64,000 bases of DNA from Dulcicalothrix desertica PCC 7102 (GTDB lineage Bacteria > Cyanobacteriota > Cyanobacteriia > Cyanobacteriales > Nostocaceae): the NCBI RefSeq assembly GCF_003991905.1, contig NZ_RSCL01000028.1, positions 1 to 64,000 on the forward strand, written 5' to 3'. This document shows positions 1 to 18,799 of the stretch, piece by piece (the first letter of the stretch is position 1; every line of letters starts with the position of its first letter). The notes under the pieces are model-generated. The model made no database searches and had not been told where the DNA came from. It saw only the letters and a program-made list of their open reading frames with translations. The position numbers were made by a program, and so were the translations under genes.

Positions 1-65
1 TTTCTTCGTCATCCTGAATTTTTGCTTTTTTCTTGGTTGTAATCTTTTGTACTTCAAATTGAAGT

Positions 66-920
66 GCGGAATGTGGGTTAGATGGTAAAGTTACTAAGAC
101 GACTACTTATAGATATACCAAAGGATGGACAAACGAGCCTAGCGATTCAAGTAATTTTAACTATTCGCAAACACATCATAATCCTAAAAAAGCTTATTCA
201 GACCAACATTATACTGCATCCGGCGCCAAAGTTGGGTTATACGATATTAACATGACTAGTTTCAAAGAGGTAATGCAACGTAAAACCTCATGCGATAGTA
301 ACTCGACTGCGTTGTCATATCCAACAGCACAAGGTATTTATTTAAATAGTAACAGTAGATTACAATTATCTGCACAGTTAATTAAATCAAGTGGTGACGA
401 CGTTAAATTAAAGAATAATTATCTTTTCAAAGGAGAAGGGGCGCCTGAAAATCCTAATATTGGAGATGTACGTATTTGCTATAATGTAATACCAACCAAC
501 TCAACAGTAACAGTTTTTGGAAAACTGGCGCCATCAAATCAAATAACTGTTTATAATGCTCCCAAAGATACTAAATTTTACCAATTATTTGCCACTAACC
601 GCAGTGAAGCAATAAAAACTTTAAACTCAGAGTACACAATCTGGACATGGATAATAAGGGTTTTAGGGTTTTTGGCAATGTCATTTGGAATGGTATTTGC
701 ATTACAACCAATAAATACTTTACTCAACTTAATACCATTTTTCGGTGAATTGATAGAAAACATAACAGTAAGTCTAAGTTTCTTTGTTGCCTTTGTTCTC
801 GCAACCGTCACAATACTTGTTTCTCAACTTTTACATCATCCTTTTGTACTTATAGCAGCAGTTGTCATCACACTTATCACTTTATCAGGAGTAAAAAAAA
901 TTAGAAAAGGTATATCTTAA
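66..920 (+). pseudogene. TMEM43-family membrane protein, 5'-truncated
   Basis: The C-terminal part resembles the TMEM43 (DUF1625) family: a soluble segment with GDVRICYNVIP, then SEYTIWTWIIRVLGF and three to four hydrophobic helices. The reading frame is open upstream of the ATG at 252 back to a TGA near 64. That extra stretch (TTTYRYTKGWTNEPSDSS) also fits the family, so the ATG at 252 is probably not the true start. No plausible start codon or first membrane helix precedes it, and 1-65 does not continue the family in any frame. I infer a gene that lost its N-terminus by deletion or frameshift. A shortened protein starting at 252 cannot be excluded. The family's biochemical function is unknown. 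Confidence 0.55.
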
Positions 921-964
921 TTAAGCTAAAATATAATTTATTGACAAATTTGAGTTTATATGTT

Positions 965-2365
965 CTATTTACGTTTCTTTTTGATGCGTTGCACTTGCTG
1001 TTGAAATTCGGCGCCTTTTTCGGGGTTAACCATTGCGACGAAGTTGGCAAATCCGGTGATTGCTGCAAGTGTATCATGAGAGTTGCCCCAATGTTTTCCT
1101 TGAAGTCCTTCTTGTTCGATTTGGTGTAAGGTGGCACGAAATTTCTTGAGGACTTTTTTGGATATATTTAGTTTGTTGTTGACGATAATGCCTGTAACTT
1201 CCTGTTGGTTTGTGTTACGTAAAACGCGGGTTTTGTCATGATTTATGTTGAAACCTTCGTGGGTTACTATTGATTCGGTGCGTCTCATGATATTACATAT
1301 ATGGCGCCGATTTTCGGTTTTAGCTGAGAAGGTTAAATCATCTGCGTAACGACTATAGGTAAATCCAATATTTTCTGCCATACCTTGTAAACGTCGGTCT
1401 AAACGACGACAGAGTAAATTAGTGATGGCTGGACTTGCGGGTGAACCTTGGGGAAGGTGTCTGTCATCTAAAGCTACGTAATATGTTTTACCGTCGAGTT
1501 CAACTTGTTCGATGTCGGCAGCGGTACAAATTAAGCCAAAAATTGTTGCTGCTGCTTCTGAGTAACCAAAGCTTTGAAATAGTCCTTTAACACGTTTGTA
1601 AGATATTGACGGGAAAAAGTCTTTGAGGTCGAAGTTTATAATAACATCGGCGCCGACGTGGGGGGTTGCGTTGGTGATGATAGAACGATTTTCACGAAAG
1701 CCATGTGCAGCGTCGTGTACTTCGAGTTTGTTGAGTATATTTTCTAGTATCCAGTATTGTGCTTGCTTGAGGTTGGGCATTGGCGCCGATATTAGTCTTT
1801 CTCCACCTGTTTTTTTGGGAACTTTGAAGCGAATATAATGAGATATTGTGGAAGTTTTACGGTTGAAGGCTAAAAAACGGAGTTTACCAATAGTGACTCC
1901 CATTGCTTCTGCAATTTCTAGGGCTGTGTTGCAAAGTGGTAAGTTATGACTTTGCAATCTTTCGATGTTTGCTTCAGTATTATTTAACCCGCCTGATACA
2001 TCTTCCCCAAGGTAGATGATATCTTTCTGTCTTTTCTCTTGCCATGCTGCTGCGCGTTCAAGCCGCTCTTGTTCGCGTCGCTCTTTGGTTTCTTTCTGCT
2101 TGCGTCGTGACTCTTCTAAACGCTGCTTTAACATTTGCTTTCGCAATTCTTTTTCATTGCGAAGCTGACTACTTTGCTGACGTAGTGTTTCTAACTCGCG
2201 TCGTATTTCTCCTTGGCGCCGAATTTCGTCTGCTGGGTCTTCGGGTATTGTACCTTGGGGCGCCCAAAATCCGAAACGTATCATTTCTTCCAGGATAAAT
2301 TCGTCTTTTCCTGTTTGGCGAATGCGGTCGTAGAGTTCCTGACGGGTGCGAGGTTGGTCAGACAT
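965..2365 (-). CDS. Retron-type reverse transcriptase (type XIII-like)
   Basis: Retron RTs copy part of a partner non-coding RNA into a DNA that stays attached to it (msDNA). Counting from the ATG at 2365, the protein has about 466 residues. Visible motifs are NATPH at 232-236 (the retron NAxxH signature), the palm motif FDLKDFF at 245-251, LPQGSPASP at 304-312, the catalytic YADD at 340-343, and VTG at 390-392 (the retron region-Y motif). There is no group II intron maturase or endonuclease domain. An Arg/Glu-rich probable coiled coil lies at about 48-114. An upstream GTG/ATG-type extension to 2509 is open but looks unconserved, so I prefer MSDQPRTRQ as start. Its partners, a SWIM protein and a WGR/ARM protein, lie on the same strand at 4973-9754, but two opposite-strand genes intervene. 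Confidence 0.85.
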   Translation of the reverse strand: MSDQPRTRQELYDRIRQTGKDEFILEEMIRFGFWAPQGTIPEDPADEIRRQGEIRRELETLRQQSSQLRNEKELRKQMLKQRLEESRRKQKETKERREQERLERAAAWQEKRQKDIIYLGEDVSGGLNNTEANIERLQSHNLPLCNTALEIAEAMGVTIGKLRFLAFNRKTSTISHYIRFKVPKKTGGERLISAPMPNLKQAQYWILENILNKLEVHDAAHGFRENRSIITNATPHVGADVIINFDLKDFFPSISYKRVKGLFQSFGYSEAAATIFGLICTAADIEQVELDGKTYYVALDDRHLPQGSPASPAITNLLCRRLDRRLQGMAENIGFTYSRYADDLTFSAKTENRRHICNIMRRTESIVTHEGFNINHDKTRVLRNTNQQEVTGIIVNNKLNISKKVLKKFRATLHQIEQEGLQGKHWGNSHDTLAAITGFANFVAMVNPEKGAEFQQQVQRIKKKRK

Positions 2366-2770
2366 AGCGGTAGTGCAAAATGAGTTGCAAGTTGTTACTT
2401 GCTGATAATCCGCGTGAGCTTTATCCAGTGTATTCGCAGTCTCCCTATTTTGGGTAGGTGTGGAGGAAAAATATTTTTTCACATCTATAAATATGCTTCT
2501 AGGTTTCAATGATTTTATAAGTGAAGATTGTTAGATTATTGGCGCCTTTGAATTTATGGCAGCACATGCCCAATATAAAATAGCATTATTTTACAGATGT
2601 ATTATTATATTACAGGATGTTTGTAATGAATCTTAAAATTAGTTATAAAAAGTTATTTTGCTTCCATATATGGGAACCCTAGTAATAGGTTCAGTTAATT
2701 GTGTTACTTCCTGGGCACGCCTGAATCTGATTGTGATAGTAAACACGATGTGAGGATTTAATAATTAGCT

Positions 2771-4075
2771 ATGGATAAATCGATAATTCAATTGATTGAT
2801 GAGTTACCCAATGATAATATTACTGTCAAGGTATTAAAGGCTCTTGATTTTGTGGCGCCAGGTCAGTGGAGTAATTTGCTGGGATTTGACAATAGTATCC
2901 GTACTATTACGGGAGAAACCGATGCTAATGTAATTCAAAAAATTCGCCAGAAGGCTGTTAGTTTGTATGAAGACCCACAACAAGGCTACCAAACAGCGGT
3001 AAGATTGTATCAAACGATTGATAAAGCTGATACGGCGATGGCAACGGCTGCCTTAGCAAATAAAGTTGGCGAAAAAATTGGCTTTCTCTCTTTTTTGAGC
3101 AACATTACTCCCAAGGCAGATGTAACTCAAACAATTGATTTAGTCTTAAAAATTGCAATTGAAATCATTGCTTTTTCCAAACTCAACGGTATTCCACAAC
3201 CAAATCCACAAGAATTTGCTAATTCTCTTGGCAATCACTACCAAGATGCGTCTTTAATGCGGATGGTTGCTTTGGTTTGTCTTGATGGAATTTTACCTTT
3301 AGGTCCTGATTTTCTTACCAAAATCCAAGAAATTATACAAGGCGCCGATACAAGCATAATAACTCAAAATCCTCTTTTCTCAACTATAAGTAGTTCTCTT
3401 CCAGGTGGCAGCCCTTCTGATAAACTGGGTTTTGTGACTCAGGGTTTTAACTCGGTACAGGGTTGGATGGGTAATTTAGTTTCTAAGACAGGTGTAACAC
3501 CCCAATCTATTTTTAGCAATTTGGGTAATTTTATTCAAATTGCAGATGATAACTTAGATTTTGTAGCTGCATTCTTAGACCAAACTACTAATTATTACGA
3601 ACATACAGGAATTCAAACAGTAGCTCGTAAGTTGATTTTGCAAGCTCATGCTTTAGCCAAGGCAGAAATTCAAGCAGTTCCAAAAGCTCCACAAGATGTT
3701 TTATCTGCTGCAAGCTCAGATACAAGCAATAAGTATGCGTTAGGTCAAACAATAGAGGTTTGGGATTCAGAAGAAGAGGATTGGTACCGAGCAACGATTG
3801 AGAAAATGGAAGAGAAGCGGTTCTTTGTACATTACGTTGGTCAAGGTTCATCTGCTGATGAATGGGTTGATGAGGAAGATATCCGTATTCGTAACCAAAG
3901 TTCCTCTGATGAAAATGGGTACGCGGTCGGTGATAAAGTCAAAGTTTGGGATGAAGATAATGAAGATTGGTATTCAGCAATTATTGGGAAAACCCAGAGT
4001 CAGCAATATTTTGTGCAGTATGTCGGTTACGATTCATCTTACGACGAATGGATTGATTTGGATGAAATGTCTTAA
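2771..4075 (+). CDS. Protein with two C-terminal Tudor-knot domains
   Basis: This is a 434-residue protein. The first 300 or so residues are mostly helical and I do not recognise them. The C-terminus holds two tandem modules of about 50 residues, near 323-375 and 383-433. Each has the pattern W-(D/E)-x-(E/D)-D-W-Y-x-A-x-I followed by YFVxYVGxxxxxDEWVD. That is the Tudor-knot (chromodomain-knot) fold known for RNA and methyl-lysine binding. No signal peptide is obvious. It lies on the plus strand between the retron RNA and the retron RT, and a strong terminator follows at 4093. The function is unknown. The nucleic-acid-binding look and location make a link to the retron possible, but this is inference. 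Confidence 0.6.
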   Translation: MDKSIIQLIDELPNDNITVKVLKALDFVAPGQWSNLLGFDNSIRTITGETDANVIQKIRQKAVSLYEDPQQGYQTAVRLYQTIDKADTAMATAALANKVGEKIGFLSFLSNITPKADVTQTIDLVLKIAIEIIAFSKLNGIPQPNPQEFANSLGNHYQDASLMRMVALVCLDGILPLGPDFLTKIQEIIQGADTSIITQNPLFSTISSSLPGGSPSDKLGFVTQGFNSVQGWMGNLVSKTGVTPQSIFSNLGNFIQIADDNLDFVAAFLDQTTNYYEHTGIQTVARKLILQAHALAKAEIQAVPKAPQDVLSAASSDTSNKYALGQTIEVWDSEEEDWYRATIEKMEEKRFFVHYVGQGSSADEWVDEEDIRIRNQSSSDENGYAVGDKVKVWDEDNEDWYSAIIGKTQSQQYFVQYVGYDSSYDEWIDLDEMS

Positions 4076-4092
4076 TTTTTCTTAAATAATAA

Positions 4093-4118
4093 GGTACCCT
4101 TGAGGGTACCATTATTTT
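4093..4118 (+). terminator. Rho-independent terminator after the Tudor-knot gene
   Basis: GGTACCCT and AGGGTACC form a perfect 8-bp stem with a 2-nt TG loop, followed by ATTATTTTT. It lies 18 bases after the stop codon of the gene ending at 4075. Confidence 0.75.
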
Positions 4119-4187
4119 TCTGGAATTGTCTTGAGGGTGCTTGTAGTTTGGTTATGTAAATTAAAAACTTGTCGAGAGATTTAAAAC

Positions 4188-4697
4188 ATGACTGCTATTC
4201 AATGCCCTACTTTTAAGCCTACTTTAAAACTTGGTAATAATGGTCAAGATGTTAAGGAGATGCAAAAGCGTTTGAATCAACGTTTGGCTGCTATTTATAG
4301 TCCTGCTTTGGAAATTGATGTTGATGGTGATTTTGGCGCTGGGACTGAAACTGCTGTTAGGTATTTACAATGTCTTGGTTTTATTAATGCAAGTGGTGTT
4401 ACTGATGCTGCTACTTGGAATTTTATTTGCGATGGCGCCGCTAGTTTACCTGTTTTAAAGTTAAATAGTTCTGGAAGTGTTGTGAAGTCTCTTCAGGAAG
4501 CTTTGTCTGCTGCTGGTTTTTATAATGGTTCTGTTGATGGTGCGTTTGGTGCTAAGACTGTTCAAGCTGTGAAGGAGTTTCAAGCTTATGTTGGTTTGGT
4601 TGCTGATGGTGTTTTAGGCGCCAAGTCTTGGGATGCTTTAATTAAGCTTGATTCTCATGTTGATAGCTGTTTTGCTATGTATTATGGTGGGTGTTAG
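4188..4697 (+). CDS. Protein with two peptidoglycan-binding (PG_binding_1) domains
   Basis: This 169-residue protein consists almost entirely of two PG_binding_1 repeats. The first is near 14-80 (LKLGNNGQDVKEMQKRL ... VDGDFGAGTETAVRYLQ) and the second near 92-155 (LNSSGSVVKSLQEAL ... VDGAFGAKTVQAVKEFQ ... DGVLGAKSWDAL). These three-helix modules bind cell-wall peptidoglycan or act as protein-docking modules. There is no enzymatic domain and no obvious signal peptide. A cytoplasmic adaptor role is therefore as possible as a wall-binding one. It follows the Tudor-knot gene on the same strand after a terminator. It ends just before the candidate retron RNA and is convergent with it. Confidence 0.8.
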   Translation: MTAIQCPTFKPTLKLGNNGQDVKEMQKRLNQRLAAIYSPALEIDVDGDFGAGTETAVRYLQCLGFINASGVTDAATWNFICDGAASLPVLKLNSSGSVVKSLQEALSAAGFYNGSVDGAFGAKTVQAVKEFQAYVGLVADGVLGAKSWDALIKLDSHVDSCFAMYYGGC

Positions 4698-4699
4698 TG

Positions 4700-4728
4700 T
4701 AAGCACTGAAGTGCTTATTACGACGAAA
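4700..4728 (+). terminator. Tandem hairpins at the convergent gene/RNA end
   Basis: TAAGCAC/GTGCTTA (4700-4717) and ACGAC/GTCGT (4720-4735) are two adjacent small inverted repeats directly after the stop at 4697. They can fold on both strands, so they may end both the plus-strand gene and the minus-strand retron RNA. There is no clear T-run. Confidence 0.4.
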
Positions 4729-4732
4729 ATGT

Positions 4733-4962
4733 CGTGTTTGCGCGCTGGTTTCCCTTCGTAAATCTCTGGGGACTAGGTTACTCAACTCAAGCGGTCACGA
4801 CTAGTAGGCGCCCATTCACTTTATATAAGTCAAACAGGAATGCGCCTACTAGTCGTAAGACCGCACAGTCAAGAGTAGACTAGTGATGTGTGTATAGACT
4901 GAATGCACGGACGGCGATACACCGCCCAATTTGCAAGGAATCTTTACCAGCGCGCTTACACG
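4733..4962 (-). ncRNA. Candidate retron msr-msd RNA
   Basis: The 230-bp segment has the architecture of a retron RNA read on the minus strand. The outer ends are a long-range inverted repeat: CGTGT..GCGCGCTGGT at 4733-4749 pairs with ACCAGCGCGC..ACACG at 4946-4962, 15 of 17 positions, a 10-bp core being perfect. These would be a2 and a1. Inside on the 5' side lie about 80 nt with a small GGCG/CGCC stem (4913-4926), a suitable msr. On the 3' side is a long hairpin with arms 4791-4811 and 4842-4864, 21 paired bases with one 2-nt bulge, a suitable msd stem. It starts 10 bases after the SWIM gene's stop codon and shares the RT's strand. The RT gene itself begins 2.4 kb further downstream. The branching guanosine cannot be fixed from sequence alone. 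Confidence 0.7.
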
Positions 4963-4972
4963 ATTATTTCAT

Positions 4973-6613
4973 TTATTGGCGCCCACGACTATGTTGCATT
5001 CGTAGTGCCAGAATATGCTCGCATGGCCCTTTGAACAGTTTGTTTTGCTGGTGCCAGTTACAAGTACACTCTGCTCCAATTATACGCTCGTCATTATCAA
5101 TCGTCAAAGATGGTGTGTAAGTTTTTTGTTTGTCTTTGACGTTGCCTTGTATTGTTAGTCTGTTGTTGCTGTCGTTTGTTGATGTTATTTGGACGGCGTT
5201 TTTAGTTAAAAAGCTTGTGGCGCCTTCTTCACGTTCATTAGCAAAGCGTAGTCTGTCCATTGGTAAGGGGTCACGACTCAGTTCTCGAATGCGGTAAACT
5301 TTTTTATTTAAGTCGTATATTACACGCCCTGCTTGTGTGTAAACACTTAATGCTCCTGTAATGGCTGCGCGGCTTAGTTTTAGTCGTTTTACTAGATCGT
5401 CTGCTGTTTCTACCCAGTTTTCACGCAGTGCATCAAATATTTGCTTTTGTGTCCATTCATCAACCGAAGCGCGTGGCGCCATTAAGTCGAAGTTTCCTGA
5501 TGTTGACCAGTCGTTTGCTGTCCATCCTGATAACCCTAGGGTAAATGACATGTCGCCTAGGTCGGCAATGTAAAATGATGGCATTCCTGTTCCTAGTAGA
5601 TGAACGGTGAATTTTTTGGCTATGGGTATAAGACGTTCGAGGATTAAAAGGCGCCTACGTCCCCATACTCTTATTGTTTGTGGTTCGGCACCAAGATATG
5701 GTGAACGAGGACAGGTTACTTCGATGTTCCACGGTTCAAATACGATACGGATGGGTTTTCCTGGCTCGAGATGGTAACGCATACTGCGGGGGCCTTGTTT
5801 TTCTTTGTGGCGCCGTAGTATGAAGCACATATTATAGATGTCGGTTGGGTGTAAGTCGAATTGAATTGTTGGTAAGGACATTGCTGAACTTACTTGTAGA
5901 AACCCTCGTACCCAGGTGTCGGGTAGGTCTATTTTTACTTCTTTGTATGCTTCTTCGTTGGTGGTTTCTACTTCAAATCCGGATGGGTCTACTTTTAGTT
6001 CGGTGGTTTTGTAGGTGCGGATTTTTTGAAATTCTTCGTATAGTGCTGCTGAGTAGTCTACGTTTGTTGTTCCACACGCAAATTCGTTGATGTTTTTGAA
6101 GACTTCGTAGCTAGCACTCAGGCGCCCGTAGCTTGATTCGTCTATGCTAAAACATTCAAAGAATACTTCGTCTGGGTGTACTGTAATTACTGGGTCGAGG
6201 ACAAACCATGCGTCTCGGTCTTTTTCGTAAATATAATTAAAGTATTTTTGTCTGGCTGCGTAAAATGGCACCAATCTTTCGTAACTTTGTTTGGTTAGTT
6301 GGTTGTATTCTTGTTGTAAGGTTTGAATTTTTGCTGTTAGGTCTTGACGCATTGCCGCTATTAAGTCCCAGTTAAGGTCTTCTTGTTGTTGACGCCATTC
6401 TTTGTATGCTGTTTTGTCTTTGGGTTTGAAGCGTAGGTCGGAGATTACGACATCATGTAGAGCGCTTATTGCTTCGCGAAATGCTATGTTTTGTCGCAGT
6501 TCGCCAATGAAGTATGTTGGGGGACGGGTGGTGTCGGGTGAAAATGACATTTGGGTGTTGGCGCCATTTTCTTGGACGGTTGTGCTGTTTTTGTAGGTGT
6601 AGTTAAATTGCAT
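4973..6613 (-). CDS. Winged-helix/SWIM zinc-finger protein, retron accessory
   Basis: This 546-residue protein ends in a SWIM zinc finger: C516, C518, C531 and H533 (CTCNW...GPCEHILAL). Before it, about 385-450, lies a winged-helix-like segment (WTQKQIFDALRENWVETADD). The N-terminal part, about 40-330, I do not recognise. SWIM fingers bind DNA or proteins. The set RT plus ARM/WGR protein plus winged-helix SWIM protein is, to my knowledge, that defined for type XIII retrons, where these act as the effector or its regulator. The gene follows the WGR/ARM gene with a 21-base gap, so the two are surely co-transcribed. The candidate retron RNA begins right after the stop codon. The toxic or sensing activity is unknown. 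Confidence 0.75.
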   Translation of the reverse strand: MQFNYTYKNSTTVQENGANTQMSFSPDTTRPPTYFIGELRQNIAFREAISALHDVVISDLRFKPKDKTAYKEWRQQQEDLNWDLIAAMRQDLTAKIQTLQQEYNQLTKQSYERLVPFYAARQKYFNYIYEKDRDAWFVLDPVITVHPDEVFFECFSIDESSYGRLSASYEVFKNINEFACGTTNVDYSAALYEEFQKIRTYKTTELKVDPSGFEVETTNEEAYKEVKIDLPDTWVRGFLQVSSAMSLPTIQFDLHPTDIYNMCFILRRHKEKQGPRSMRYHLEPGKPIRIVFEPWNIEVTCPRSPYLGAEPQTIRVWGRRRLLILERLIPIAKKFTVHLLGTGMPSFYIADLGDMSFTLGLSGWTANDWSTSGNFDLMAPRASVDEWTQKQIFDALRENWVETADDLVKRLKLSRAAITGALSVYTQAGRVIYDLNKKVYRIRELSRDPLPMDRLRFANEREEGATSFLTKNAVQITSTNDSNNRLTIQGNVKDKQKTYTPSLTIDNDERIIGAECTCNWHQQNKLFKGPCEHILALRMQHSRGRQ

Positions 6614-6634
6614 TGGTTTTGTTTTAGGTTAATT

Positions 6635-9600
6635 TTATATTCTGGTTTCGGTCAGTGTAAGGATGTTGAGGGGGAGGGTTAGGTGAGGGTATTTTTTACG
6701 GATTGATAGCATTATTTGTAGGGTGGTGGCTTTGTCTTGTTTGGCTATGGTGAGTGATTGACGGGTCATTATTTCTGCTACTATTTGTGCTGCTTGTTCG
6801 CTTTTTTGTGATTCGTTGTGAAGAAATTGGAAGATGCGTTGTTTGGCTGTTCGGCTACGGTTGATGTTTGATAGTACTGTGGTGAAGTATGGTGTTAGTT
6901 GCTGTAGGCGTTCGAGGTTGTCTTTGGCATAGTTTTCTAGGTAGTTGGTGACTAGGGTTTGCATGTCGGAGGAAGGGTGTTCACTAAATTTGAGGAGGTA
7001 TTGTTCTGCGTCTTGGGTTTGGAAGTTTTGCGTTAGTAAGTCTCTGCCAAATTTTCTGGTTTCTTCTCGCACGCTGTCGCAGATGGAGATTAAGACTTGG
7101 GGGGTGAATTGTTGGGCGCCGAATTGGGTGGTAAATATATTAAATGCGAAATCGCGCGTGTCTTGCCATTTTGCTTCTAGTGTTTTAACTGCGATAGTTA
7201 GTTCTTGGGTATTGTTGCGAAGTTGTTCTATGTTTTGCAATAGCATTTGTTGCGCTGCTTGTCGAACTGCGATTATTTCATGGTTACTGAGTTTGACTAT
7301 TTCGCTGGTTGTAAATTGAGATACCCATGTGTTTAGGTTGGCTTGGAGTAGTAGTCCTCCAAGTTCTTGTGCTGCGGATGATTTGGTTTGAAGTAAGGAT
7401 AATGCTGTGTCTTTAGAAATACTTGTCATCCATCCTTGTTGTTCTTGGAGGAGGTGGAGTAGGTAACTATGCACTCCTTCGTGTTGTTCTGGAGTGAGTA
7501 ATATTTCGATAAGTTCATGTGCTACGTCTATTTGAAAATCTGGATAAGCGGCGCCTAATCTATGGATAATTGGTTTGATGGCGTTGCGTATTTCTGAATT
7601 AGCACTTACCGCCATTGCGATAATTAAGGTACTGTCTTCTAGCAGTTTGGCATCGGGTAGTTGTCCAAATAATCGAATTCCTATAACTCGCAGTGTTTCG
7701 TATGATGATGCTAGTAATGATTCTATAATATTGCTGGGTAGGTTTTCGGGACTGGTTTGGTGGTTGAGTAAAATACGGGCGCCTAATTCTTGAATTTCTA
7801 ATACTGGATGTGCTAGTAAATCATTAATTACACTCATCCCTAATGTACGCAGTTGGGGAGCAAAGCTTATAAGTAATATTTCGTTGATTTCTTTGATAAT
7901 TTCAGTTGGTGCTTCAGGTGTAAATGCTAACAATTCAATAATTATTCTACCTAATAAAACTCGTGCGGTTGTGTCATTAATTACTGTTGCACTTAGGAGT
8001 TTTTTTGCGAAGTTACGAGTATCATCGTGTGTACTGACGATTATAGCTGTAATAAAATTAGTATTTTGTAAGAAAAACTTGCGGTTGCTTTCTATCCAGT
8101 GATACGCTATACTTCTTGCTGTTTGAGATACACTGTTAATTACAGCTAAGACGAGTTCAATATTAGGTTCTTGCGGGTTATATTTAGACTGCCCTAATTC
8201 ACACGCAAATTGTGCAGTGACTTCATAGGGCTTTTGGAGTAGTTGAATAATATTATCTATATTTATAGATGTATGAAAGCTTGTACATGTTTGCAGTGCT
8301 TTGACGGCAAACTCGTGAACTGGAGAGCATTGACTTTGTAGTAATAGTCTGAGTAATAGTTGTGGGTGTTGTTCCCATAATTGTGGAAATGCTTCTTCAC
8401 GTTTCGGTTCTGGTGTACCTGGTTTATATCCTGGTTTACATTTCCATGCTTTCGAGTTTGTTTTTAATTCGTAGCGCGCACTATTCTCATACAAGATATG
8501 ATTAAAAGTTATGTAACCAGCGTATGCATCCCAAGTATTGCAAAATTCTACTCGACTCCAATTAGAACGGTTCCAACGATAAAATTTTGTTTCTCTAATT
8601 GGTTCTGCGTCTGCATCAGAATATTCAAGCAAGACGCTAGCTGCCATATTTACATATTCTACGGCGCCTTCTTCTCCCAATTGTTTGAGTGTACGCCAAA
8701 TTCTTCGCTGCAAGTACGCTTGAGTTTGATTACTATATGCTTTTGTTGATGTCGGACTTTTTAACTCGTCTTCGTGGCGCCGTTTCTCAACCTTGCTATA
8801 TCTTTGAGTAGTAGGGTTCCATTCCCAATAGTTATTATCGTTGTCAAATGTCCCTTGTTCTTTCTCAAATCGATAAGCAAAAATACTGAATACTTCAGCA
8901 TCATAACGATACTCTGCCATTTTGAATATATGTCGAAGATGCTTGAAATAATTAGGTTTGTATGGGGCTGTACGTAATATTTCTAGTAATACTGGACGAA
9001 CATGATTATTATCTATTTGATAGAGCTTATCAAGAACAGCAAAACTCTTATAATCTCCGTGCTTAAAATAATGGTCGAGTTCTGAGGCAAAGCTTTCTGC
9101 CGAACCATTACGCGCTAACTTTTGTAAATTTTTGGGCAAAAACTCTATCATTTCTGCTTGTAACTCAGCTTTGGTGCGAGTATCACTAAGTTGCAATAGC
9201 GCTTCAAATGCAATTCGACTTACAAATTCAGGTGAAGATGCATTTTGATAAAGTTGAATAAGTATGGGGATAGCTTCTTGATTTCCACAGTATCCTAATG
9301 ACCAAGCTATGCAATAATCGCGTAAAGGCTCACCTGTTCCGATAAGGTTGATGAGTAAAGGCGCCGCTTCTTTAATTTGAGCTTCACCAGCACGCCATAT
9401 TGCTCTTTCTAACTTCCATTTACTTGGTTGGTTGTTGGCAAGACGAGTTAATATGGCTTCTTCACGAGTTTTGTTTATTGCTACTGGTTGTGTTTGAGTT
9501 GTAGGTGCGGGAGTGGATACATCTTGATATCCTTTTTTAGTTTTTTCTTGAACAAGCTTGTCGAATACTCGCTCTGCTTCTAGTAAGGGTACAGCTTGAG

Positions 9601-9754
9601 TCGTTTTTACACCCTCTTTTAAATTGGCGCCACGTTTTCCGTAACGAAAGTTAACAACATACTGCGCTTCACCAGTCTGGCAAATATCTACTTCATAAAT
9701 CTTGTCAGATGTACCTTCGCGATAATGCAGCGTCGTCCGCTTGATTAATTTCAT
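6635..9754 (-). CDS. WGR-domain protein with ARM/HEAT repeats, retron accessory
   Basis: This protein of about 1,039 residues starts with a WGR domain at about 1-75 (YREGTSDKIYEVDI ... FRYGKRGANLKEG), a module known from PARPs and DNA-associated proteins. After a linker the rest is an alpha-helical solenoid of HEAT/ARM-like repeats, for example AAPLLINLIGTGEPLRDY near 120 and many degenerate copies to the end. No catalytic motif is seen. I chose the ATG at 9754, which places the WGR domain at the N-terminus. An in-frame TTG at 9781 is possible. It is the first gene of a minus-strand unit with the SWIM gene. Type XIII retrons carry an ARM protein of this kind. A scaffold or sensor role is inference. 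Confidence 0.75.
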   Translation of the reverse strand: MKLIKRTTLHYREGTSDKIYEVDICQTGEAQYVVNFRYGKRGANLKEGVKTTQAVPLLEAERVFDKLVQEKTKKGYQDVSTPAPTTQTQPVAINKTREEAILTRLANNQPSKWKLERAIWRAGEAQIKEAAPLLINLIGTGEPLRDYCIAWSLGYCGNQEAIPILIQLYQNASSPEFVSRIAFEALLQLSDTRTKAELQAEMIEFLPKNLQKLARNGSAESFASELDHYFKHGDYKSFAVLDKLYQIDNNHVRPVLLEILRTAPYKPNYFKHLRHIFKMAEYRYDAEVFSIFAYRFEKEQGTFDNDNNYWEWNPTTQRYSKVEKRRHEDELKSPTSTKAYSNQTQAYLQRRIWRTLKQLGEEGAVEYVNMAASVLLEYSDADAEPIRETKFYRWNRSNWSRVEFCNTWDAYAGYITFNHILYENSARYELKTNSKAWKCKPGYKPGTPEPKREEAFPQLWEQHPQLLLRLLLQSQCSPVHEFAVKALQTCTSFHTSINIDNIIQLLQKPYEVTAQFACELGQSKYNPQEPNIELVLAVINSVSQTARSIAYHWIESNRKFFLQNTNFITAIIVSTHDDTRNFAKKLLSATVINDTTARVLLGRIIIELLAFTPEAPTEIIKEINEILLISFAPQLRTLGMSVINDLLAHPVLEIQELGARILLNHQTSPENLPSNIIESLLASSYETLRVIGIRLFGQLPDAKLLEDSTLIIAMAVSANSEIRNAIKPIIHRLGAAYPDFQIDVAHELIEILLTPEQHEGVHSYLLHLLQEQQGWMTSISKDTALSLLQTKSSAAQELGGLLLQANLNTWVSQFTTSEIVKLSNHEIIAVRQAAQQMLLQNIEQLRNNTQELTIAVKTLEAKWQDTRDFAFNIFTTQFGAQQFTPQVLISICDSVREETRKFGRDLLTQNFQTQDAEQYLLKFSEHPSSDMQTLVTNYLENYAKDNLERLQQLTPYFTTVLSNINRSRTAKQRIFQFLHNESQKSEQAAQIVAEIMTRQSLTIAKQDKATTLQIMLSIRKKYPHLTLPLNILTLTETRI

Positions 9755-10088
9755 ACTGCCCCCACCATTCAACTGTACCAAATTCTATTTTCGCTCTATT
9801 TTTTTGAAGGCGCCAGGGGGGGTGAGTATTTATATATTATTGGGTTTGTTCCTACCCGCATAGGGTTGAAAACCGCTATGCTAATAGCGAAAGTCCTCTT
9901 TTAGAGGACTAAGTAATAACTGTTATTTTAGCTACCACTAAGTTATCTATCATATAGTTTGTGCGCCAATGGCGCACAAATTCTAAATAATGGCTGCAAT
10001 TGGCAATTCTCAGTAAATATATTTTTGGTACTTAAATACTATATAATGTCTACAGAAATTACAAGCTGCTAAATCTAGCAAAGGAGGA
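9755..10088. promoter_or_regulatory. Divergent intergenic region with three hairpins
   Basis: The region separates the retron operon (minus) from the gene at 10095 (plus) and must hold both promoters. It contains perfect inverted repeats: CGCTAT/ATAGCG at 9874-9889, AGTCCTCT/AGAGGACT at 9892-9910, and TTTGTGCGCC/GGCGCACAAA at 9958-9980. The last is nearly a full palindrome and could be an operator. No open reading frame of note is present. Confidence 0.4.
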
Positions 10089-10094
10089 ATGTCT

Positions 10095-10790
10095 ATGACA
10101 AGTTCTGATTCTATCCTTTCCAATTATCAAACATTGGTGGCGAACCATGCTAGCCAATTTGACCCAGAGGTTACAGCTATACAAGAGTTGGTACAAGCAC
10201 GAATGCAAGAACTGCGTCGTTCTGAGCAGACTTTAGTGGAAGCGCAAACGGCAGAACTAAAACGTATTACCGATGCTTTGGCTACTGATGTGCGATGTTT
10301 GCTATCAACACCAGAATTGCGCGCATTTGTAGAAGAGTATAAAAAAGATTCGCGTGCTTGGTATAGTCAAAAATCTGACTCTAGCATTGCAGATGACCCA
10401 ACCACTTGGTTATTAGCAACGGTTGAATTACCTATAGGATTGAGTAACTATCAAACCCAGGAAGACCCTGATGGTTATGATGACGAGCGTCACCACATCT
10501 TATATAGTTATTCACTTTGCCTAACTATAAATGGTGTAGAGCGTCTGATTGAGGTACCTTACAAGCGAACCTACAATATTAATGAAGATAGATATTATTC
10601 ATTAGATGACCAAATCGACTGTTATATTGCAGGTGAGGTGGAAGATTTCCTTGATGAGATAGAGTATCCAAAAACATCAAGAGACCAACTCGTTAAAGAA
10701 TTAAGCGTTTTAATTGGATATGCGGAAAACATTCTTACTCTTAAACCAAGAGTTGTGAGTTTTGAATATATAGGAGCAACCGAAAGATAA
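10095..10790 (+). CDS. Hypothetical protein with N-terminal coiled coil
   Basis: I do not recognise the 231-residue product. Residues about 20-75 are helical and charged (VQARMQELRRSEQTLVEAQ) and probably form a coiled coil. The rest is mixed alpha/beta and rich in acidic and aromatic residues, with no catalytic signature or membrane helix. I start it at the ATG at 10095 because the ribosome-binding site AAGGAGG at 10081-10087 is 7 bases away. The ATG at 10089 is only one base from it. It sits between the retron unit and the isomerase gene. A structured inverted repeat follows the stop. Confidence 0.5.
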   Translation: MTSSDSILSNYQTLVANHASQFDPEVTAIQELVQARMQELRRSEQTLVEAQTAELKRITDALATDVRCLLSTPELRAFVEEYKKDSRAWYSQKSDSSIADDPTTWLLATVELPIGLSNYQTQEDPDGYDDERHHILYSYSLCLTINGVERLIEVPYKRTYNINEDRYYSLDDQIDCYIAGEVEDFLDEIEYPKTSRDQLVKELSVLIGYAENILTLKPRVVSFEYIGATER

Positions 10791-10799
10791 TAAGCGTAG

Positions 10800-10858
10800 G
10801 GTGTGTGGCGCCTTTGAAACAATTTGAACGTAGTTACATGCTTGTAGCGCCACGCACC
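10800..10858. repeat. GGTGYGTGG...CCACGCACC inverted repeat
   Basis: Arms GGTGTGTGGCGC (10800-10811) and GCGCCACGCACC (10847-10858) pair with one mismatch around a 35-nt loop. A similar element lies at 51706-51764. Position after a stop codon suggests a terminator or small mobile palindrome. Confidence 0.5.
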
Positions 10859-10890
10859 AATTTTAAATCATTACAATAACAGGAGGAATA

Positions 10891-11682
10891 ATGGAGTTAT
10901 ATCTAAGTTTATCTGCTTATGGTGGAGTCTCAACCCGTAAAGCATTGAGCGTGTTTTGGGAAGCAGGAGTTCGACATATTGAATTAGCAATTGGACCAAA
11001 ACCAGATATAGATACAGTACAGGCAATTCAGGATTTTAAACAACAAGGAATGATTTACCGCGCACATCATGCTTTTGTCTGGGATAATCGACATTATCCT
11101 TTTAGCTTGGCACAACCGCAAAAATGGGATTATTTTCAACGATTAGTAGATTGGTTAGCAGATAATAGCATTACAGCTTACTCAGTGCATGGTGGTAATT
11201 TTTCGGAGAGAACAGAGCGTGCGGCAGCTTATGCTATTTTCATTGAAAACATCAATTATCTGAACCAGCTATGCCAAGCGCGCGGAATTGTTTTGGGTGT
11301 GGAAACGATGTATCCAACTGTACCTGGTAGCGGATTTGAAAATCTTCTAGATAATAATGAGGAAGTAGAGCAGTTTTGTAAAGATGCTCCTCAAATTAAA
11401 ATAGTTGTTGATATGGCACATCTGAATATCTGGCGCCATTATAGTGATAAAGAAAAATTACAATGGCTCAAACTTCCTCCAGAACGAATTTTGGAAATTC
11501 ATATTTCTGATAATGATGGGTTGCATGACACACACACACGTATTACACAAAATACATGGTGGATATCGGAGGTTGCTCAGTTCCCAAAGGTGGTTCCCAT
11601 TGTGTTAGAAAGTAGATTAAATCGTTTGCCTGTTTCAATTGTGCAGCAAGAATACGACCGTATTGTTACTCTTATTTCATAG
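10891..11682 (+). CDS. Sugar phosphate isomerase/epimerase-like TIM-barrel protein
   Basis: This 263-residue protein has the AP-endonuclease-2/xylose-isomerase-like TIM-barrel layout: an N-terminal SLSAYGGVSTRKALSVFWE, YRAHHAFVW near 50, YSVHGGNF near 96, VLGVETMYP near 130, VVDMAHLNIWR near 168 and LEIHISDNDGLHDTH near 203. The His, Glu and Asp residues in these strand ends are the usual metal ligands. A strong ribosome-binding site AGGAGG lies 4 bases before the ATG. It stands alone between the retron and the CRISPR island, and its substrate is not predictable. Confidence 0.75.
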   Translation: MELYLSLSAYGGVSTRKALSVFWEAGVRHIELAIGPKPDIDTVQAIQDFKQQGMIYRAHHAFVWDNRHYPFSLAQPQKWDYFQRLVDWLADNSITAYSVHGGNFSERTERAAAYAIFIENINYLNQLCQARGIVLGVETMYPTVPGSGFENLLDNNEEVEQFCKDAPQIKIVVDMAHLNIWRHYSDKEKLQWLKLPPERILEIHISDNDGLHDTHTRITQNTWWISEVAQFPKVVPIVLESRLNRLPVSIVQQEYDRIVTLIS

Positions 11683-11744
11683 CTATAGGCGCCGAAGTTT
11701 CTAGTTTAGTGTTGATGCTCCAAATTTCAATATAATTAGATAAC

Positions 11745-11833
11745 CCTGCCATTTGCTATAAAATTTACCGTACTTTACCTTTGTTGGCGCCGAACCTTGG
11801 TAAAAATATCTATAAACTTAAAGAGTTGGACAT
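11745..11833 (+). pseudogene. Decayed copy of the cas3 3' end
   Basis: About 70-90 bases match the coding end of the split cas3 gene at 27893-27980. Shared stretches include GGCGCCGAACC and ATATCTATAAACTTA. The similarity breaks after TTGGA and resumes in the leader. About 140 bases present beside array B are absent here. This remnant shows that array A was copied together with part of cas3. Confidence 0.65.
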
Positions 11834-11849
11834 TTAACTAACAATTAGT

Positions 11850-12072
11850 TTATGATGTTAGTAGATTGATGTTTGGCAAACCGAAGCGGGGGCTAAAACC
11901 TGGGGGGTTCTGCCAAAATCGCCAGAACCTAGACAAGTTAATAGTTACAGAGTTTGGTTACTTGAGATAAATAAGAAATTGTCTCAATAGGAGCGCTTGA
12001 AATGAGGTCATTTTTCAGACCTGACAAAACAGATTGTAGAATCCTTGCTCTATAAGGGTTTCCAATGGCGGA
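11850..12072 (+). promoter_or_regulatory. CRISPR leader A
   Basis: The region is strongly similar to the sequences upstream of arrays B and C, beginning TTATGATGTTAGTAGATTGATG. Conserved parts include TTGGCA..CCGAAGCG, GGTTCTGCC..GCCAGAACC (inverted repeat), GAGATAA..TGTCTC and CAGATGGCGG-like sequence just before the first repeat (here CCAATGGCGG). It should hold the promoter for the precursor RNA and the integration signals for Cas1-Cas2. Confidence 0.8.
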
Positions 12073-13581
12073 CTTGATACGTAGCGATACCCGCTTGCGG
12101 GACTGAAACATAAAACAGGATTGTCTAAAACTAAGGTATTACTTCCTTGATACGTAGCGATACCCGCTTGCGGGACTGAAACGACTATTTTCTTTTAGGT
12201 TAAATACTCTTTTTCTAGCTTGATACGTAGCGATACCCGCTTGCGGGACTGAAACAAGTTTGTTGAACAACTGTCTTTTAAAACTTTCACCTCTTGATAC
12301 GTAGCGATACCCGCTTGCGGGACTGAAACTAATATGGAAGAAACAATTTACGAAGAAGAGTTAGCTTGATACGTAGCGATACCCGCTTGCGGGACTGAAA
12401 CAAAATGCCACAAGAGATAGATGACTATGTTCGTGCCTTGATACGTAGCGATACCCGCTTGCGGGACTGAAACAATCTAAACGCACTAGCCCCATGATTC
12501 GCTTTTATGCGACTTGATACGTAGCGATACCCGCTTGCGGGACTGAAACCCCACTACAACGCGGACAGTCGAACACGCTATCGAACTTGATACGTAGCGA
12601 TACCCGCTTGCGGGACTGAAACCTTTAATAGATGTAGGTGTTATTAAAGAGAAACAGACTTGATACGTAGCGATACCCGCTTGCGGGACTGAAACTTAGT
12701 TAATGGCGAGAGTAGAAATTCATTATCACTTCCAACTTGATACGTAGCGATACCCGCTTGCGGGACTGAAACCGGACAAGCATTAGACTTCTTGGTTGCA
12801 GCAGATGGAGCTTGATACGTAGCGATACCCGCTTGCGGGACTGAAACCATTTTCTAACTTGGGGACTATTAACAACAACTCCTCCTTGATACGTAGCGAT
12901 ACCCGCTTGCGGGACTGAAACTTGTCGTTTTACTCATGGCGCAATACAGACGGCTCTAACTTGATACGTAGCGATACCCGCTTGCGGGACTGAAACCCAA
13001 ATTTACGTTTGATTTGTCAAATGCCAACAGGGCTTGATACGTAGCGATACCCGCTTGCGGGACTGAAACCCTTTCTGTTGCATCTCTAAATCATATTGTA
13101 GACTGACTTGATACGTAGCGATACCCGCTTGCGGGACTGAAACACCGAATGCTTTCGAGAATAGTTTGCGTGCTGCCAGTCTTGATACGTAGCGATACCC
13201 GCTTGCGGGACTGAAACGTTTGATATTTCAATGGTCAAATTACCGCACCATCCAGCTTGATACGTAGCGATACCCGCTTGCGGGACTGAAACCAGAAAAA
13301 GTCAGGTTTTATTACTGAATGGAAGAGTCTTGATACGTAGCGATACCCGCTTGCGGGACTGAAACAACTTATACCGTTAGGCAATCAAGATGAAGTTACC
13401 TTGATACGTAGCGATACCCGCTTGCGGGACTGAAACCTCACTCGATAAAACTTCTCGACTATTTTTATCAACTTGATACGTAGCGATACCCGCTTGCGGG
13501 ACTGAAACTTACCTTGTCGCAAATCCCCAAAACTATCCCAAAAACTTGATACTTAGCGATACCTGCTTGCGGGACTGAAAC
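12073..13581 (+). CRISPR. CRISPR array A, 21 repeats
   Basis: There are 21 copies of a 37-nt repeat that starts CTTGATACGTAGCGATACCC and ends GCTTGCGGGACTGAAAC. Spacers are 34-39 nt. All copies but the last are identical by eye. The last (13545-13581) has two changes (CTTGATACTTAG and ACCTGCTTG), typical of the leader-distal end. After one more 35-nt spacer-sized stretch, a 12-base repeat stub CTTGATACTTAG lies at 13617. The leader is at the left, so new spacers enter on the left and transcription is plus. ACTGAAAC is the expected 8-nt crRNA 5' tag. Confidence 0.98.
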
Positions 13582-13601
13582 CAGTCTCAACTCAAGAGAT
13601 T

Positions 13602-13632
13602 GACCCTAAGTTTAAGCTTGATACTTAGGGTC
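13602..13632. terminator. Hairpin at the end of array A
   Basis: GACCCTAAGT (13602-13611) and ACTTAGGGTC (13623-13632) form a perfect 10-bp inverted repeat. The right arm is built partly from the truncated 22nd repeat and overlaps the stop codon of the convergent WYL gene. It may act as a two-way terminator. Confidence 0.5.
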
Positions 13633-15040
13633 AGTTATTGTATAAATTGTAAGTCTTTTGAATCTCGTCAGCTATTTGTTGGCGTAAGTCCCAAGGTAAT
13701 AATACTTCGACTTTTGAGCCTAAAGCTCGTAGCCATCGGAGTACGTAATAATCTGTGACTCGATAATCTACTCGGTAGTAAGTATCTGTGCTTGGACGTG
13801 ATTTAAAGGTTTTTAGTAAGTTTTTTTGCTGTTCTGGGTCTTGTGTATTTTGTTGGATTAATTCAAATACTGTTTGATGTTCTATTGGTGTAAAGGTTTC
13901 GTGAACGTTTATTCCTCTCATATAGTTGTCATGAAAATTCTGCTCAAACCTTAATATCATTAGTGATTTAGGTTTGTAAAAGTCGCATCCCCAAGCTTCT
14001 TTTAGTTTATCGTTTACAGTTTTTGGAGTATATAATTTATTTTGCCGATGTTGGTCTCTTAATAGCTGTGGAACACGGGGGTCTTCCCATTCTAATGTTT
14101 CTATTCCTGGGGATTTAATTCTATCAAGTCGATATTTGTACCAGTTAATATCATCTTTTGGAGTTAGACCATAAGCACAAAGATATTTAGCATGTTCCAT
14201 GAAGTATATACATACTGGATAGGCGGCACACTCTTTAATTTTATTTTGATGTGCGCTGTAGTAAGATAATAGTACAGGTTGTATTTTACCAGAATCCCAA
14301 ATCTCTTGTAGTTGGCTTTGAATGTCGTCTACGGCATCTTGTATAGGGCTAGATTCGGGTACAACATAATCTACGTACAAGAAAACACGGTGATTGTTTT
14401 CGTCTATATCTTCAGAGAATTCTTCTGCTAAAAGTGGATATCTTGGGTCGAGGAAGCTAAACATACCCAATGCTCCAGCAATATATGCTTGTTTTGTTTG
14501 TGTTAAATTACTGGCTGTATTCTCTGATGTTGCAAATATTTTTAATTCTTCAACACGGCAGAAATGTTTACTTCTCCCTGTTACATTCTCTAGTTGCTTC
14601 AAGCATTTTCGACTTACTAATAAATCAAAGTCACTTTGCAGCGATTTCCGAACCTGGGCAAACAAGCGTTCTTCTAAAAGTTTGTCTATATCAGAGTCAG
14701 CTATGGGTATTTGTTTCTGCAAAGCATTTCGCCATTCATCCAGGTTAACTTCCAAATCAGTTAAGCACTGTTTGGTTGTTTTATTGCAAGCGCAGTGTAT
14801 GTCTTGATGATTTTGTATATCTTCTTGTTTCTCGTCTTTGTGTGTTGTACTAAAAAATGCTTGGCGCCATTCATGATAAGTAAAGTTGTCTCCTATCGCG
14901 TATCCATTATCACTGTAGAGCCAACGTAACAGTACCCATAGCCTCAGCGCACGGGTAAGGTTCTGGATTTGGTCTAAAGAGCCTTTCGCTAAGTTTTGTA
15001 AATGTTGGGGATGAGGAAGACTATGGCAGTTGAGATTCAT
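13631..15040 (-). CDS. WYL-domain CRISPR-associated regulator, TIGR03985 family
   Basis: This 469-residue protein resembles the TIGR03985 family, which cyanobacteria encode beside type III loci. The C-terminal third contains a WYL-like ligand-binding region (YYRVDYRVTDYYVLRWLRALGSKVEVL) and a following helix. WYL proteins sense nucleotides or nucleic acid and control CRISPR-cas transcription. The gene is divergent from the III-D operon with only 113 bases between the starts, so control of that operon and itself is likely. It converges on array A. The CACNKTTKQC stretch near residue 83 may be a metal site, which is unconfirmed. Confidence 0.75.
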   Translation of the reverse strand: MNLNCHSLPHPQHLQNLAKGSLDQIQNLTRALRLWVLLRWLYSDNGYAIGDNFTYHEWRQAFFSTTHKDEKQEDIQNHQDIHCACNKTTKQCLTDLEVNLDEWRNALQKQIPIADSDIDKLLEERLFAQVRKSLQSDFDLLVSRKCLKQLENVTGRSKHFCRVEELKIFATSENTASNLTQTKQAYIAGALGMFSFLDPRYPLLAEEFSEDIDENNHRVFLYVDYVVPESSPIQDAVDDIQSQLQEIWDSGKIQPVLLSYYSAHQNKIKECAAYPVCIYFMEHAKYLCAYGLTPKDDINWYKYRLDRIKSPGIETLEWEDPRVPQLLRDQHRQNKLYTPKTVNDKLKEAWGCDFYKPKSLMILRFEQNFHDNYMRGINVHETFTPIEHQTVFELIQQNTQDPEQQKNLLKTFKSRPSTDTYYRVDYRVTDYYVLRWLRALGSKVEVLLPWDLRQQIADEIQKTYNLYNN

Positions 15041-15153
15041 ATGAGTTAGGCTATTTTAAGTGCAATTACCAAGTTAGCAGGTATCGGAAGAGGGGTATTC
15101 CGGTAGGGTGTAATCTTGGGAATATAAAAGTTAAAAAGGAATACATCTACCCT
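15041..15153. promoter_or_regulatory. Divergent promoter of the WYL gene and III-D operon
   Basis: This 113-base gap serves two opposite transcripts. It has a TATTCC...GGAATA inverted repeat around 15100-15126 and a further GGAATA near 15140, just before the start. These are candidate operator half-sites for the WYL protein. This is inference from symmetry only. Confidence 0.35.
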
Positions 15154-18137: not shown

Positions 18138-18785
18138 GTGAGTACATATCAACTATTAATCAAGCTTTTGAGTGATACAACCTTTGGTAGGGGTGATGGT
18201 GTAGCTGGTTTAATTGACCAGGAAGTTGAGCATGATTCATCTGGGTTTCCTTATTTACGTGGACGCACCCTAAAAGGTTTATTGAGTGAAGAGTGTGATA
18301 ATTTGGTATCTGTTTTACCAGGAGATATTCGTTCTAGCTGGGAAAACGTTGCTTGTCGGTTATTTGGTACACCTGGCAGCACTTTAGCAACTATAGGAGA
18401 AATGCATGTTGGTGATGCTTGTTTGCCAGATGATTTACGCGAAGTTGTTGCTTGGCAAATTAAAAATGAAGAATTAACTGATAAAGATGTTCTTGATTCT
18501 TTAACTACTATTAGGCGCCAAACAGCGATTAATTATCAAACTTGTGTTGCTGATAAAGGTAGTTTACGCTCGTTTCGAGTTGTCATTCGCGCGCTTGAAT
18601 TTAAGGCTGATTTACTTTTTGAAAATCAACCAAACGAAGAGTTACTTTCACTGTTAGCGGTAAGTGCATTAGCTTTGCAAAGAGTGGGGAGCGGACGTAA
18701 TAGAGGTCGAGGTCATGTTCAGTGTACGCTTCATGATGGTGCTGGGGAAGATATTACACATAAATACGCAAAGCAATTTGGTTAG
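18138..18785 (+). CDS. Csm3-like Cas7-group RAMP, type III-D
   Basis: This 215-residue RAMP protein has the Cas7-group pattern: a SDTTFGRGDGVAGLID start, FPYLRGRTLKGLLSEECD near 34-50 and a glycine-rich C-terminal loop RVGSGRNRGRGHVQC near 183-198. Cas7 subunits form the backbone along the crRNA and cut target RNA through a conserved aspartate. The N-terminal DTT/D region is a candidate, but the catalytic residue cannot be proved by eye. It starts with GTG directly after the cas10 stop. Confidence 0.8.
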   Translation: MSTYQLLIKLLSDTTFGRGDGVAGLIDQEVEHDSSGFPYLRGRTLKGLLSEECDNLVSVLPGDIRSSWENVACRLFGTPGSTLATIGEMHVGDACLPDDLREVVAWQIKNEELTDKDVLDSLTTIRRQTAINYQTCVADKGSLRSFRVVIRALEFKADLLFENQPNEELLSLLAVSALALQRVGSGRNRGRGHVQCTLHDGAGEDITHKYAKQFG

Positions 18786-18799
18786 CAGGAGGAGAAATT

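Follow-up and report, generated by a model that had tools for sequence, protein, structure and literature searches.

Retrons, a kind of bacterial anti-virus element, are usually described, and detected, as compact cassettes of RNA, reverse transcriptase (RT) and effector, and in the known myxococcal retrons the RNA lies just upstream of the RT. Type XIII is reportedly the retron class of Mestre et al. 2020, as coded in PADLOC. In the accessible text of a 2019 review (PMC6868368), putative cyanobacterial retron RTs (Nostoc punctiforme, Trichodesmium) are grouped with myxococcal RTs; the myxococcal retrons Mx162 and Mx65 are among the closest known systems. The accessible part of PMC12548924 presents Retron-Sda1 and Retron-Bth1 as loci with other genes inside them or replacing the usual effectors; the locus examined here resembles these in its intervening genes and differs from them in that neither an unlinked RT nor an effector-RNA module without an RT is described in that part. 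The phrase "retron type XIII" occurs once in PMC11953036, and a partial literature search of titles and abstracts returned nothing on a type XIII retron RNA, on RTs encoded away from their RNA, or on the mechanism of type XIII. Type XIII retrons are a known class, and the dispersed, in-trans arrangement reported here appears to be a new variant of it.

Organization of the locus

The window, the whole stretch of 64,000 nucleotides of Dulcicalothrix desertica PCC 7102 that was analysed, contains a locus that by its anatomy is a type XIII retron. The RT, SWIM and WGR/HEAT proteins all match type XIII profiles, the RT has the YADD and VTG motifs of a retron-type RT, and the order WGR-SWIM-ncRNA-RT is that of most loci from other phyla. 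The window differs in that 2.4 kb with two opposite-strand genes separate the RT from the RNA, and the RT-proximal copy of the RNA has been deleted. The features are as follows.

968..2365, minus strand: retron RT, type XIII (PADLOC RT_XIII, E 4e-203), with YADD and VTG; likely start ATG at 2365
2384..2419, minus strand: 36-nt remnant of a second, RT-proximal ncRNA, comprising the a1 side and CAACUUGCAAC; the rest is deleted at the junction 2384/2383
2771..4075, plus strand: intervening gene for a Tudor-knot/chromo-like protein, presumably foreign to the retron
4188..4697, plus strand: intervening gene for a peptidoglycan-binding protein, presumably foreign to the retron as well
4733..4962, minus strand: very probably an intact retron ncRNA (msr-msd) of type XIII, from its fold, homologues and covariation
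about 4973..6613, minus strand: SWIM_XIII protein, 546 aa (PADLOC SWIM_XIII, E 6e-248)
6635..9781, minus strand: WGR_XIII protein, 1048 aa, with a WGR domain and a HEAT solenoid (PADLOC WGR_XIII, E 0)

The open reading frame of the RT spans 965–2509, and a 514-aa version beginning with TTG and reaching up to 2509 takes in the upstream sequence with the RNA remnant. The best matches of the RT profile in the PDB are the Ec86 retron RT structures. NCBIfam gave no match for SWIM or WGR, and matches for the RT only below curated cut-offs. The Tudor-knot/chromo-like gene is at the same place in Calothrix HK-06, PCC 7716 and PCC 7103, and NIES-4105 and the remaining loci searched gave no sign of it; the peptidoglycan-binding gene is present only in HK-06, PCC 7716, PCC 7103 and NIES-4105 among the loci compared. 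Across the window the palindrome GGCGCC is strongly over-represented (116 occurrences, 5 expected), which is reminiscent of the HIP1 sites of cyanobacteria.

Structure and conservation of the RNA

A preliminary description, made from the letters of the window, had proposed an msr-msd RNA at 4733–4962 on the minus strand, the strand of the RT. Its parts are listed here from the RNA 5' end to the 3' end, all on the minus strand.

4946..4962: a1 arm, RNA 5' end
4931..4938: CCUUGCAA box; G 4934 is the predicted branching guanosine, directly after the CCUU/AAGG helix
4909..4927: msr hairpin GGGCGGUGUAUCGCCGUCC; both-side changes in 3 of 8 pairs, 99% of cells pair
4880..4888: conserved CAUCACUAG, 5' side of a long msd-closing helix with its partner at about 4768–4790
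4791..4864: msd hairpin
4753..4762: UUUACGAAGG box; predicted start of the reverse-transcription template just 5' of AAGG
4733..4749: a2 arm, RNA 3' end

The end inverted repeat of the preliminary description is present: minus-strand CGTGTAAGCGCGCTGGT (4962–4946) pairs with ACCAGCGCGCAAACACG (4749–4733) at 15 of 17 positions, and the GCGCGCTGGT core is perfect. The inner hairpin, GCGGTC-TT-ACGACTAGTAGGCGC against GCGCCTACTAGTCGT-GACCGC (4864–4842 with 4811–4791), likewise has the proposed 21 bp, which divide into 6 + 15 at the single 2-nt bulge, and the proposed loop of 30 nt. Folding of the minus strand, which had been suggested as a check, gave −106 kcal/mol against a shuffle mean of −63.8 (z −9.7; none of 200 shuffles did as well). 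The plus strand folds too (z −8.7), as an inverted repeat would, and fold alone therefore cannot assign the strand; it is settled by the homologues. Among ncRNA-SWIM pairs within 1 kb, the two are on the same strand in 59 of 59 and the ncRNA is downstream of SWIM in 58 of 59, and in all 40 ncRNA-RT pairs within 6 kb the ncRNA is on the same strand as the RT and upstream of it, which bears out the minus strand. The a1/a2 arms, msr hairpin and msd stem are thus on the strand of the RT. The RNA starts about 10 bases past the SWIM stop codon. No Rfam family matched positions 1–20000 of the window at gathering scores.

Covariation was examined in an alignment of the window RNA with 12 homologous copies from the same order, one of which is the second copy of this genome and two of which are in G172. 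RNAalifold found 49 pairs in these 13 rows, 21 of them with changes on both sides. In a named structure of 43 pairs, 95.1% of cells pair and 54 cells are changed on both sides, compared with 15.3 in shuffles (none of 500 reached 54) and with 4 to 14 after sliding of the partner; in the long msd-closing helix, 7 of 15 pairs have such changes. The base helix CCUU/AAGG is invariant in 13 of 13 rows and hence beyond covariation testing; the columns that define it and the branching G do not vary, and G 4934 is predicted from its position. The CCTTGCAA motif was found in 93 of 111 distinct RNA cores and TTACGAAGG in 88 of 111.

An arm-swap test was done with strict anchors (23 of 263 matches without anchors were dropped) and with duplicates and near-duplicates removed, leaving 66 RNAs, or 63 for the msd. 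The a1 and a2 arms pair at −30.1 kcal/mol with their own partner and at −16.3 with swapped ones, the own partner being strictly best in 38 of the 66; for the msd stem the values are −32.8 and −15.1 kcal/mol, and the own partner is strictly best in 50 of the 63. The RNA core is 182–188 nt long in 58 of the 66 dereplicated RNAs. Covariation is strong in the msr hairpin, the msd stem and the a1/a2 arms, and homologous RNAs are found order-wide and in other phyla. A conserved, covarying msr-msd-like RNA is present in a type XIII context. The msr-msd candidate has gained support from its type XIII neighbours, from this covariation, and from there being no intact rival RNA immediately upstream of the RT.

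The RT-proximal copy of the RNA

A location of the RNA directly upstream of the RT is usual for retrons, if not strictly defining, and the window departs from it by 2.4 kb. A better conserved RNA in that position, which the preliminary description had named as grounds for abandoning the candidate, did not emerge: what is there is the 36-nt remnant of the same RNA family, recognised by alignment with two relatives that keep the RT-proximal copy (G634, and G661, which is Calothrix sp. HK-06). In these two members of the same genus the order is WGR-SWIM-ncRNA1-intervening gene(s)-ncRNA2-RT; G661 has both intervening genes, and in G634 the peptidoglycan-binding gene alone was found. In the window, ncRNA2 breaks off after its a1 side and first bases, and the deletion ends shortly ahead of the RT start. 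The genome of Calothrix sp. PCC 7716, complete by its title, has the same deletion junction and keeps the arrangement of the window, with an RT 97% identical to that of the window. PCC 7103 has a different, partial deletion of the RT-proximal copy, and NIES-4105 and HK-06 keep the copy. Another candidate upstream of the RT, at 2510–2770, was rejected as unstructured (z 0.23).

A model, R1, comprising 82 nt of the msr and built on 13 sequences, has its sole match in the window at the 4857–4938 copy. Because the RT-proximal copy is deleted, the RNA at 4733–4962 is the intact candidate template. We consider it very probable that the type XIII retron of the window has its intact msr-msd RNA at 4962–4733 (minus strand) and that the RT uses this RNA, 2.4 kb away.

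Linkage of RT and RNA across the order

An even sample of 388 genomes of the order, taken out of a larger group, was searched with cut-offs of 48 bits for the ncRNA (R1), 600 bits for RT_XIII and 450 bits for SWIM_XIII. Thirteen of the RNAs built R1, so those rows match by construction, and RTs below 600 bits, some with a weak ncRNA match of their own, are left out of the counts; some RT is present at E ≤ 1e-30 in 130 of the 388. Of 73 genomes with any of the three parts, 68 have ncRNA, RT and SWIM. The other five are G469 (RT and ncRNA), G509 (SWIM only), G649 and G658 (SWIM and ncRNA) and G630 (ncRNA, with partial RT and SWIM below the cut-offs). In G649, which is 99% complete in 470 contigs, a search for RT_XIII at E ≤ 0.001 came back empty, which points to a dispensable RT or to an incomplete assembly. 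RT and ncRNA are both present in 69 genomes, RT alone in none, ncRNA alone in three and neither in 316 (Fisher 1.5e-73, shared ancestry ignored).

RT and RNA co-occur without being linked. The nearest ncRNA-RT distance, in 68 genomes, is at most 1 kb in 17, 1–6 kb in 15 and more than 6 kb on the same contig in 4, and in 32 the two are on different contigs; no ncRNA is within 6 kb of the RT in 36 of 69 genomes, which in this respect differ from the compact arrangement by having the two parts more than 6 kb apart or on separate contigs. Lower bounds from contig ends, taken over every ncRNA and every RT, are at least 6 kb in 31 of the 69, at least 20 kb in 22 and at least 50 kb in 13. Six genomes have ncRNA, RT and SWIM on three contigs, and in G456 one contig carries all three, with 45 kb between RNA and SWIM and 1.1 Mb between RNA and RT. 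The 90 ncRNA copies are within 6 kb of both RT and SWIM (34), SWIM only (34), RT only (6) or neither (16). More than one ncRNA occurs in 14 genomes and more than one RT in only two. In a first sample, the ncRNA was within 1 kb of SWIM in 10 of 11 SWIM_XIII genomes of the same order, this genome included; in G320 the distance is 2.3 kb. On a tree of 75 RTs (36 detached, 35 linked and 4 outgroup) the linkage label needs 12 changes, at least 9 of them forced by supported branches, and linkage has therefore been lost, or regained, repeatedly.

The detached ncRNAs score like linked ones (median 93.7 bits, n=36, and 92.5 bits, n=33, best copy per genome; p 0.47). The profile scores of detached RTs are somewhat below those of linked RTs (653 and 670 bits, p 2e-5). 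Of the 36 detached RTs, 35 are open over at least 466 residues with YADD, NAxxH and VTG; the exception, in the MAG G426, carries an in-frame stop after about 61 codons, from a pseudogene or a sequence error. R1 found no copy in the 36 detached RT loci, of which 9 span about 9–16 kb and the others about 2–4.5 kb, and gave one chance-level match (E 4.4). Upstream of detached RTs, the adjoining 300 nt show on average no structure (mean z −0.6, n=33, +1.3 to −2.2, first-order shuffles), compared with a mean z of −2.2 (−0.3 to −4.9) for 20 linked RTs, with single values that overlap the detached range.

Two other observations were made at the RT loci. Six detached RTs (L091, L185, L210, L214, L217 and L220, of genomes G172, G456, G489, G468, G411 and G508) have about 70–100 extra residues, apparently C-terminal. 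A gene for RNase III lies at most about 0.4 kb upstream of the RT in 12 relatives, with the RT linked or detached (L025, L027, L089, L092, L126, L132, L137, L139, L142, L145, L147 and L149); the enzyme could process the RNA, or the RT could merely sit at a stable site.

Other phyla and modules without an RT

In a scan of named genomes, the best 80 of 187 RT relatives were kept, with flanks of at most 10 kb, some of them cut by contig ends. R1 finds the RNA in 32 of the 61 loci titled cyanobacterial and in 18 of the 19 others, which include Myxococcota/Polyangia, Cytophagales, Bradyrhizobium, Hahella and Blastocatellia; in those 18 the ncRNA is upstream of the RT. A lineage that branches deeply within the same phylum (L093, L037) likewise has the RNA right before the RT, and from this distribution adjacency of RNA and RT is likely the ancestral state. 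The long distances recur in the named genomes: Calothrix parasitica NIES-267 has its RT at about 3.05 Mb and only two RNAs were found, at 1.858 and 1.864 Mb, about 1.19 Mb away, and on one 8.26-Mb contig of Moorena bouillonii PNG the RT and RNA are at 1.86 and 7.56 Mb. Two small genomes of the same class (L038 and L039, 1.7–1.8 Mb) have SWIM followed directly by an RT_XIII-like RT, with no R1 match in the region; each may be a divergent relative with an unrecognised RNA, or have none.

The genome of the window has a second WGR-SWIM-ncRNA-RT locus (G000:C8) and a third RNA copy (C9:16179), directly downstream of a gene for a 1126-aa HEAT protein that matches WGR_XIII and is without the WGR domain; HEAT gene and RNA together form a module at L363, 3061–6720. 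Neither SWIM nor RT was found in the 11 kb examined around this third copy. The same HEAT-RNA module is present in G634 and G661 (L360, L361; about 93% DNA identity), on contigs with no RT_XIII or SWIM_XIII match. NIES-4105 and NIES-267 have similar WGR/HEAT-RNA pairs, the one in NIES-267 adjoining a WGR-SWIM-RNA set. Possibly, a HEAT-repeat effector with its own retron RNA and no RT beside it constitutes a satellite module. The large neighbours of lone ncRNAs outside Calothrix that were scanned, six of them with Pfam matches, are unrelated proteins, so that the module is seen in Calothrix only.

Proposed mechanism and alternative explanations

By its predicted anatomy, the RNA would be closed by the a1/a2 stem, and the 2'-OH of G 4934, conserved in CCUUGCAA, would most likely serve the RT as primer. 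Starting at about 4757, the enzyme would copy the template through the 21-bp hairpin and so make a branched msDNA; its length, at a guess from the anatomy, would be about 110–130 nt, compared with the 70–115 nt of the preliminary description. The RT of the window, its proximal copy being deleted, would use the RNA 2.4 kb off, behind the two opposite-strand genes, and since RNA, SWIM and RT are unlinked yet found together in dozens of relatives, we infer that the RT works in trans. Points against this explanation are G649, with RNA and SWIM and no RT match, the in-frame stop in one detached RT, and the lower profile scores of detached RTs. By analogy with retrons as a class, the complex of RNA, DNA and RT probably restrains the effector proteins until phage infection. 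A more far-reaching reading, to which we give a probability of about 0.7, is that the cyanobacterial type XIII retron is naturally dispersed, with one RT serving one or several unlinked RNAs in trans, including those of HEAT-RNA satellites that lack an RT, and with one effector a PCNA-like clamp bearing a SWIM zinc finger.

The RNA could instead be a structured 3' element of the WGR-SWIM operon (a terminator, a stability element or a regulatory RNA), unrelated to the RT. In most of the 68 three-part genomes SWIM is indeed no more than 1 kb away from it, and a T run follows a2 in many homologues. However, in four of the 68 (G446, G500, G516 and G543) the RNA sits at most 1 kb from the RT, with SWIM on a different contig, in G435 the RNA is 164 bp from the RT and SWIM is 5.2 Mb away along the contig, and the six genomes with the parts on three contigs also speak against such an element, as do the RNA upstream of the RT in nearly all loci not titled cyanobacterial, the lack of any genome with RT alone beside 69 with both, and the msr-msd anatomy itself. 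We regard a 3' element as highly improbable. That the RT of the window is an orphan without a template, and that the RNA at 4733–4962 serves only the second complete retron (G000:C8), is a reading suggested by the deletion in the window and in Calothrix PCC 7716 and by the presence of that second locus; it is improbable, given that the RT has an unbroken reading frame and the YADD and VTG motifs, that PCC 7716 keeps the arrangement with a nearly identical RT, and that in genomes with a single RT the detached RT has no nearby template found by R1. Many of the genomes are drafts with hundreds of contigs, which might make the unlinked loci seem products of assembly, but the lower bounds of at least 20 kb in 22 of the 69, the distances along single long contigs (639 kb in G308, 1.1 Mb in G456 and 5.7 Mb in G486) and the separation of about 1.19 Mb in NIES-267 leave this explanation a negligible probability.

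If RT, template and effectors are indeed unlinked yet kept together, as in a naturally dispersed retron, detection by neighbourhood misses them; several RNAs and effectors can then share one RT, and effector-RNA modules without an RT become possible. The natural RT-RNA pairs make recognition of the template by the RT testable.

The effector proteins

The WGR/HEAT model retrieved generic alpha-solenoids in a fold search, with TM at most about 0.26. The AlphaFold2 model of the SWIM protein has a mean pLDDT of 75 (71–97 per 10-residue block over 241–360). A Foldseek search with it returned PCNA-type sliding clamps in all of the best 50 of 473 PDB matches at E ≤ 0.001; the best clamp match has E 1.4e-9 and a TM by target of 0.72, and values reach 0.77 among the matches listed. 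Matches in a second structure library are mostly viral clamps. A PDB sequence search with the SWIM profile gave weak matches only (E 0.18 and 0.31), and no SWIM relatives were found in viral contigs. From the model, SWIM_XIII is predicted to combine a pair of clamp domains, with a helical insertion, with a winged helix and a C-terminal SWIM zinc finger; of the four helices that would line the ring, two are basic and two are not. We know of no earlier description of a clamp fold for this protein, and none was found in the partial literature search. Such an effector would give type XIII its first concrete mechanism hypothesis: since the predicted fold is that of a sliding clamp, the target is plausibly, if speculatively, DNA or the replication fork.
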